Source of the DNA: Megasphaera sp. MJR8396C
GTDB taxonomy: Bacteria; Bacillota; Negativicutes; Veillonellales; Megasphaeraceae
Assembly: GCF_001546855.1 (NCBI RefSeq)
Contig: NZ_KQ958207.1
Span: 1 to 64,000 of the forward strand
Length of the DNA stretch: 64,000 nucleotides
Reading direction: 5' to 3'
The position numbers and the translations under genes are program-made. This document shows positions 60,497-61,924 of this stretch, one piece after another; position 1 is the stretch's first letter, and every line of letters begins with the position of its first letter. Below the pieces are notes generated by a model. That model was not told where the DNA came from. It made no database searches and saw only the letters and a list, made by a program, of their open reading frames with translations.

Positions 60497-61075
60497 ATGA
60501 AAAAACTTATTTTAACGGCGACATTGGCAGCATTTGCCATTACGACCGCAGCGTGGGCAGCCCCTATCAAAAACGAGCAGCCCGGTGATTTGAAAGCCAA
60601 CATCAACTATGGATTTGACCAAAAAGAAGGTCACGGCGACGCTAAGAGCCGCTTTACCGGCGGCGACGTCACTTACGTCATCAACGATCGTTGGAACCTC
60701 GAGTACATCAACAATTATACGAAAGGCAATGATTCCCACAAGATCAACGAAAACTATCTCGTCGGCAACTATCGCCTGACGGAATACCTTTCGGCCTATG
60801 CCGGTGCTTCTTACATCAAGACCGACACGTATGATTCGAAAAAATCCTACGGCTACCAGGTCGGCGTCCGCGGTCAGGTCCCCATTACTGAACGCTGGCA
60901 GGGCTTTGCGTCCATCGGTGTCGGTGATGACGCCAATACCTACGAAATCGGCGTCGGCTACGACATTACGCCGCAGTGGGACGCTCATCTCAAATATCGC
61001 CGCAGCAGCATCGATGTCGACAACTACGATGACGACGTCCGCGGCTGGCAGGTCGGTATGGGCTATAAGTTCTAA
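60497..61075 (+). CDS. outer-membrane beta-barrel protein
   Basis: A 192-residue exported protein. Signal peptide KKLILTATLAAFAITTAAWA then APIKNEQ. The mature part alternates polar and aromatic residues in about eight beta-strand-like segments (YVINDRWNLEYINNY; QVGVRGQVPI; HLKYRRSS) and ends VGMGYKF with the terminal Phe that BAM recognises. No family assigned. ATG at 60497 has GGAGGTG upstream. Position at the end of the LPS operon fits an envelope role. Confidence 0.8.
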   Translation: MKKLILTATLAAFAITTAAWAAPIKNEQPGDLKANINYGFDQKEGHGDAKSRFTGGDVTYVINDRWNLEYINNYTKGNDSHKINENYLVGNYRLTEYLSAYAGASYIKTDTYDSKKSYGYQVGVRGQVPITERWQGFASIGVGDDANTYEIGVGYDITPQWDAHLKYRRSSIDVDNYDDDVRGWQVGMGYKF

Positions 61076-61077
61076 CG

Positions 61078-61107
61078 TTGACAATTTGTCAGCCTGTCCC
61101 GTATAAT
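61078..61107 (+). promoter_or_regulatory. promoter of the ncRNA at 61112-61375
   Basis: TTGACA (61078-61083), 18 bases, TATAAT (61102-61107). It starts 2 bases after the stop of the outer-membrane gene. The predicted start is about 61114. Confidence 0.85.
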
Positions 61108-61111
61108 GTAT

Positions 61112-61375
61112 CAATGACATGTGCTGTGGTTGAAAGTCGATGTCAGTCGCAGACGAAGCGATCCACGTAAGGTGCCCAAAGCGGTACTGATCATAGTGCG
61201 GCCTAGAAGTAAGCCCTGCCGCGTCATAAAACGCGAGAGGATTATTAGTGGGGGACAACAGTCTATGAGCAAGGGTCCCAGCAGGCGAGTGTGGGGGTAA
61301 AGACCAGGTCAGGCATGTCACAATGATAAGGTCTCGCATAAAGGCTCGTGCCGCTATGCGGGGCCTTATTTTTTC
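61112..61375 (+). ncRNA. structured non-coding RNA, class not identified
   Basis: About 260 bases with a consensus promoter and a strong terminator and no credible open frame. GACATG at about 61117 pairs with CATGTC at about 61315-61320 to close the structure, helped by TGG/CCA next to it. Internal features include GGTGCCC, CCGCG-TCATAAAA-CGCG and runs such as GTGGGGGAC and GTGTGGGGGTAAAGACC. It is neither tmRNA, SRP, RNase P nor 6S by the motifs I checked. The raiA RNA class, which occurs in Firmicutes at similar size, is one possibility I cannot confirm. Confidence 0.7.
61328..61374 (+). terminator. terminator of the ncRNA
   Basis: AAGGTCTCGCATA and TATGCGGGGCCTT (two G-T pairs) form a 13-bp stem followed by ATTTTTT. 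Confidence 0.85.
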
Positions 61376-61489
61376 CCTATATTAAATTACGCTTTAAGCG
61401 GCATAAATAGTCGTTTTTTGTTTGACGGATGATTATTCGTATAGTAAAATATAAGGGATTTATGTATTAGCCTAAGGAGTGGAGTCATA

Positions 61490-61924
61490 ATGGATCGCGA
61501 GTGGTTAGAGCATGAGATCAACAGAAATCCCTTTGACACCTTTATGCAGTTCCATGTTGCCAAGGCTGAACAGGAGTGTACTGTTCTCACCTTTGAGAAT
61601 AAGGGCTCAAAATGGGACAATCCCAATGGTACGATGTACGGTGGCGTGCTGTATTCTATGGCTGATTCGGCGATGGAAGCTGCCTGTGCCGTTCACGGCA
61701 AGGCGGTCCTGACCCTGGATTTGGGCATGAATTATTTGCGCCCGGCCTTTGCCGACACGATCATCCGTGCCGAAGCAAAAATCATTCACAACGGCCGTAC
61801 GACGATGGTCGCTCTTTGTGATTTTTACGATGATGACAATCGCTATTTGGCGCACGGCAAGGGAACCTTCTTCGTAACCGGGCCTTACAGCGGTGATGAA
61901 CAAGGAGGTGCGGCCAATGGATGA
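61490..61924 (+). CDS. PaaI-type hotdog thioesterase (1)
   Basis: A 144-residue hotdog protein. FENKGSKWDNPNGTMYGGVLYSMADSAM carries the conserved N-x-x-G-x-x-x-G-G-x-x-x-x-x-x-D catalytic pattern near residues 42-59; TLDLGMNYLRPA follows. It likely cleaves acyl-CoA thioesters. It overlaps the second thioesterase gene by 8 bases and precedes an acyl-CoA dehydrogenase, so the three form a fatty-acid or aromatic acyl-CoA unit. Confidence 0.82.
   Translation: MDREWLEHEINRNPFDTFMQFHVAKAEQECTVLTFENKGSKWDNPNGTMYGGVLYSMADSAMEAACAVHGKAVLTLDLGMNYLRPAFADTIIRAEAKIIHNGRTTMVALCDFYDDDNRYLAHGKGTFFVTGPYSGDEQGGAANG

Follow-up and report, generated by a model that had tools for sequence, protein, structure and literature searches.

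The window analysed here, a stretch of 64,000 nucleotides from Megasphaera sp. MJR8396C, contains the gene of an already known noncoding RNA, the raiA-motif RNA or ModT, which is present in one copy in the genome. On its upstream side lies an outer-membrane beta-barrel gene (60497-61075); downstream come two 4HBT thioesterase genes and then a gene for an acyl-CoA dehydrogenase, an order that is kept in most of the family of the window (f1 in the numbering used below). The features of the locus are as follows.

61078-61107, + strand: promoter, -35 box TTGACA, 18-base spacer, -10 box TATAAT (12/12 consensus match)
61114-61321, + strand: raiA motif / ModT RNA core (208 nt), full-length match to RF03072
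61115-61122, + strand: P1 outer helix, 5' arm, with GACATG at 61116-61121; pairs with 61313-61320, covariation
61145-61151, + strand: P3 loop AGUCGCA, 5' half of pk-1; six of seven pairs with 61197-61203, covariation
61194-61195, + strand: 5' half of pk-2 (U, A); pairs with 61298-61299, covariation
61197-61203, + strand: 3' half of pk-1, UGCGGCC; pairs with 61145-61151, covariation
61298-61299, + strand: 3' half of pk-2 (U, A); pairs with 61194-61195, covariation
61313-61320, + strand: P1 outer helix, 3' arm, with CATGTC at 61314-61319; pairs with 61115-61122, covariation
61326-61374, + strand: intrinsic terminator, hairpin 61326-61369 and five T (-30.2 kcal/mol)

Results

Identity of the RNA

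Scanning of the window with Rfam 15 assigned positions 61114-61321 (+) to RF03072, scoring 183.6 bits where the gathering threshold is 101.3, with a match spanning positions 1 to 209 of the 209 of the model (E 8.5e-47). Membership of the family is defined by a score above the curated gathering threshold over the full model, and the locus exceeds it along its whole length. No other family rose above threshold in the window; a weak match to NPPA-AS1_3 (61436-61555, 14.8 bits) was dismissed as chance. An earlier note, made from the sequence alone, had described a free-standing structured RNA that could be raiA RNA or an undescribed class, and had named an Rfam scan and covariation among relatives as checks. 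The scan gave a clear match, the full-length alignment to the model and the covariation settle the question in favour of raiA RNA, and an undescribed class is ruled out; the free-standing and structured character is likewise upheld by the RF03072 match, the covariation and the RNA's own promoter and terminator within the genus. The RNA is also, as that note held, not a tmRNA, SRP, RNase P or 6S RNA, none of which had an Rfam match in the window, and neither tmRNA nor tRNA was found at the locus. An exact 26-base piece of the RNA is common to Megasphaera massiliensis, M. cerevisiae, Megasphaera sp. NM10 and others.

Secondary structure and covariation

The structure was taken from the cryo-EM description (PMC11751092), giving 52 pairs, and was counted on an alignment of 54 distinct relatives belonging to the class. 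Both sides had changed in 29 of the 52 pairs, and 97.1% of cells were paired in the relatives against 84.8% in shuffles. The covariation score reached 0.425, compared with 0.184 in shuffled alignments and at most 0.083 when the structure was slid; the structure was partly set from the same sequences, which makes the slid control a favourable one and leaves the number of two-sided changes unexplained by it. Not one of 500 shuffles attained any of the covariation measures. Helices P1, P3 and P5-P8 are supported by covariation, including the closing helix already noticed as GACATG/CATGTC, in which 61116-61121 pairs with 61314-61319.

Both pseudoknots seen in the cryo-EM structure of raiA RNA, pk-1 and pk-2 (PMC11751092), are supported as well. 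In pk-1, 97.4% of cells are paired, with C-G/U-A and A-U/G-C changes among the relatives; in pk-2, which is only two pairs long, 97.2% are paired, again with two-sided changes. The window forms six of the seven pairs of the former and both of the latter. A U-A/C-G change in pk-2 occurs in each of the 12 sequences from family f5 and in one of f2, probably as two events, and a G-C/A-U change occurs in all 11 sequences of f1. The P4 region, for which three published models disagree (PMC11706538), contains several pairs that are non-standard in the window when drawn as in Rfam.

Comparative evidence for the structure is far stronger than that from single-sequence folding. The whole transcript folds with a z of -3.0, and the native fold is not the predicted one: the minimum-energy fold misses native helices and was set aside in favour of the comparative pairs.

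Variants of the RNA were also observed. At L071:4025-4309 (G023, minus strand), the pk-1 3' strand and the P6 5' strand of modT are duplicated internally (GCAGCTTAG..GTAAGTCCTGCCGCAG occurring twice), and in spore-former loci such as L055, L059, L062 and L067, insertions in the P7 region lengthen the RNA to ~265 nt.

Promoter, terminator and overlapping reading frame

The TTGACA-N18-TATAAT promoter reported in the earlier note was recovered with 12 of 12 consensus positions (TTGACA at 61078-61083, TATAAT at 61102-61107), ending 6 bases upstream of the RNA. Counting 6-8 bases past the -10 box puts the predicted start right where the closing helix begins. Three promoter-like sites of at least 9/12 were counted in the region, against 0.9 +/- 1.1 in shuffles, and across the class such a site directly precedes the RNA at 68 of 70 loci, compared with 26% of shuffles. 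The strong terminator is equally real: its hairpin (-30.2 kcal/mol, z -6.3, followed by five T) was matched in stability by none of 200 shuffles. Terminators follow the RNA at 11/11 loci of f1 and 9/10 of f4, and are scarce in the other families. From promoter, 208-nt core and terminator, a modT transcript of ~260 nt is predicted.

That no open frame overlaps the RNA proved literally incorrect, as a mechanically called 59-aa GTG ORF lies at 61121-61300; the substance of the claim, the absence of a protein-coding gene, stands. In the relatives within f1 this frame stops after 16-48 aa in 8 of 10 cases, and the ORF was therefore rejected as a gene.

Gene neighbourhood

The genes comFC and raiA/HPF, the usual neighbours of raiA/ModT RNAs, are not beside the RNA in the family of the window. 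In the genome of the window the raiA/HPF gene is on another contig (G000:C3), and in the relative G211 it lies on the same contig as the RNA, ~262 kb away. This adjacency is not a defining feature of raiA RNA, since the literature reports it for 74% (comFC) and 66% (raiA/HPF) of loci (PMC11706538), not for all. In many spore-forming relatives the RNA is followed by zf_Tbcl, an amino-acid ABC transporter, a cold-shock gene and raiA/HPF; in part of f2, cysS lies downstream; and in f3, f4 and f5 an HD-GYP-type gene adjoins the RNA on the opposite strand (HD_5, upstream of the RNA at L019, L020, L022, L046, L047 and other f3-f5 loci). Judging by these varied neighbours and the near-universal promoters, the RNA behaves as a movable unit which carries its own promoter.

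Distribution across the class

In a survey of 253 genomes of the class, at least 90% complete and with one genome per species, the RNA was present in 144 (142 above cut-off). The 109 genomes without it comprise all 107 of family f21 and two drafts, G060 and G025. In G060 the contig with HPF ends within the transporter operon, short of the expected site of the RNA, and the absence may be an assembly gap; in G025 it is uncertain because the assembly is in 330 contigs. A more sensitive search of 37 f21 genomes returned nothing above chance, the best match scoring 16.7 bits and unrelated control genomes also giving matches below the cut-off. Two f21 genomes retain the block of zf_Tbcl, transporter, cold-shock gene and HPF, within which the RNA was searched for and not found. 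At L093:5786-5960 (G107, f21, minus strand), the promoter region, ~20 bases of the 5' end of the RNA and the zf_Tbcl leader are left without the RNA body. This locus aligns with a score of 173.7 against a shuffle maximum of 74.1, to which the flanks contribute a part, as a scar would lead one to expect, and it is what remains of a lost modT gene. The retained block without the RNA, together with this scar, indicates that f21 has lost the RNA.

A truncated modT was observed at L050:4007-4111 (G047, minus strand; 54.7 bits, below cut-off), where an internal deletion of ~110 bases takes out P3, pk-1, P5, the P6 5' strand and P7; the gene is either decaying or misassembled.

Co-occurrence with sporulation and c-di-GMP genes was assessed with Pfam profiles, from which an unusual cyclase could escape, and each count gives a number of genomes and not of separate loss events. 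Spo0A_C was found in 45/253 genomes and GGDEF in 184/253. Among the 144 genomes bearing the RNA, these profiles did not detect Spo0A in 100 and, by comparison of the two lists, GGDEF in 66, the genome of the window being in both sets, while GGDEF is present in 105 of the 107 f21 genomes, all of which are without the RNA. The EAL domain was not found in the genome of the window and, in the order, is present in only 8 of the 54 genomes; the HD-GYP-type match in the genome of the window is weak and partial. HPF is present in 251/253 genomes and, being near-universal, does not track the RNA. Families f3 and f4, which have almost no GGDEF proteins, keep the HD-GYP-type gene beside modT, and the substrate of HD_5 there may be something other than c-di-GMP.

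Discussion

The reading that we hold to be very probable is that the locus is the single modT gene of this Megasphaera genome and that its RNA would act in trans in timing the passage from growth to stationary phase, without Spo0A and most likely without c-di-GMP. For expression, abundance and function in Megasphaera we infer by analogy, the trans-acting role at the growth transition being carried over from clostridia: the RNAs of C. difficile and C. acetobutylicum are abundant and trans-acting, and affect growth transition and sporulation (PMC11706538). By this analogy, modT RNA would be made at a high level in growing cells, fold into the compact raiA structure, act in trans, probably within a ribonucleoprotein, and time the switch from growth to stationary phase. 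As neither Spo0A nor GGDEF nor EAL is detectable in the genome, a route through Spo0A-driven sporulation would be impossible in this organism, and one through c-di-GMP most likely is not used.

Control in cis of the downstream thioesterase genes, as a riboswitch or leader, is suggested by the Rfam type label of RF03072 ("Cis-reg; riboswitch") and by many spore-forming relatives, in which the RNA ends ~35-60 bases before zf_Tbcl with no intervening terminator, as a leader would. Such a role is nonetheless very unlikely, because the RNA is not beside raiA/HPF and looks transcriptionally separate. No expression platform tied to a conserved downstream gene was found: the RNA has its own terminator, directly after it at every f1 locus, and the genes beyond it vary by family, from thioesterases to zf_Tbcl, the amino-acid ABC transporter and cysS. 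A promoter-like TTGACG-N17-TAAAAT at 61422-61450, directly before the thioesterase gene, supports separate transcription of the latter, and trans-complementation has been obtained in two clostridia (PMC11706538). A base-pairing small RNA, with which the free-standing gene with its own promoter and terminator would agree, is very unlikely too, as conservation in many families of the class covers the RNA from end to end rather than being confined to a short seed, and C. difficile ModT is not bound by Hfq or KhpB (PMC11706538).

The proposal of a trans-acting ribozyme, which might for instance process tRNA or 5S RNA, draws on the compact and highly conserved structure with its many invariant unpaired bases, and on the increase of tRNA and 5S in the C. 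difficile mutant, for which a ribozyme has been suggested (PMC11706538; also PMC11751092); as catalysis by raiA RNA is not reported in either paper, we regard it as improbable, though deserving some weight. Action mainly through c-di-GMP, the level of which rises in the C. difficile mutant (PMC11706538), could also be read from the HD-GYP-type neighbours in f3, f4 and f5, and their presence in several related families makes a link of the RNA to a cyclic nucleotide possible. There is little chance, however, that c-di-GMP is the main route, given the RNA-bearing genomes without detectable GGDEF, that of the window among them and also without EAL, and the near-complete retention of GGDEF in f21, from which the RNA has disappeared.

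The presence of the RNA in a bacterium with no detectable Spo0A or c-di-GMP-making enzyme suggests that neither sporulation nor c-di-GMP is its function everywhere. The 100 RNA-bearing genomes without detectable Spo0A, the 66 without GGDEF and the loss in f21 despite GGDEF indicate that the sporulation and c-di-GMP links of C. difficile probably arise downstream of a more basic role, exercised in trans as growth gives way to stationary phase, so that the clostridial spore and c-di-GMP effects would stem from a function that is more general. Non-spore-forming hosts had already been taken to argue for such a function (PMC11706538); what the present survey adds is that c-di-GMP is unlikely as a general route.

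On a broader scale, we lean towards a core function of ModT that is independent of both processes, that is kept under selection in non-sporulating, GGDEF-less Negativicutes and that was lost in f21. If this is true, f21 must either have found a substitute for that function or do without it, offering a natural experiment for its identification. The survey narrows the function of an abundant, widespread RNA, which is kept without detectable Spo0A or c-di-GMP synthase; its absence from a whole related family having GGDEF proteins provides a contrast clade for the discovery of partner genes, and Megasphaera and its GGDEF-less relatives are cleaner systems than clostridia for studying its basic role.

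Comparison with known systems

Like 6S, SRP, RNase P RNA and tmRNA, to which it has no Rfam match, the RNA of the window is free-standing, structured, likely abundant and of similar size. With raiA/ModT RNAs it shares the conserved core, pk-1, pk-2 and a sigma-70-type promoter. The isoforms of C. difficile ModT measure 215 and 260 nt (PMC11706538), and the predicted length of the Megasphaera transcript is similar to that of the longer one; in both, the terminator comes shortly after P1. The differences lie in details: relatives mostly have G-C in pk-2 whereas f1 uses A-U, an A-C mismatch at the outermost pk-1 pair is specific to the genus of the window, and the U that is constant near the base of P1 in raiA/ModT relatives is missing from 9 of the 11 sequences of f1.
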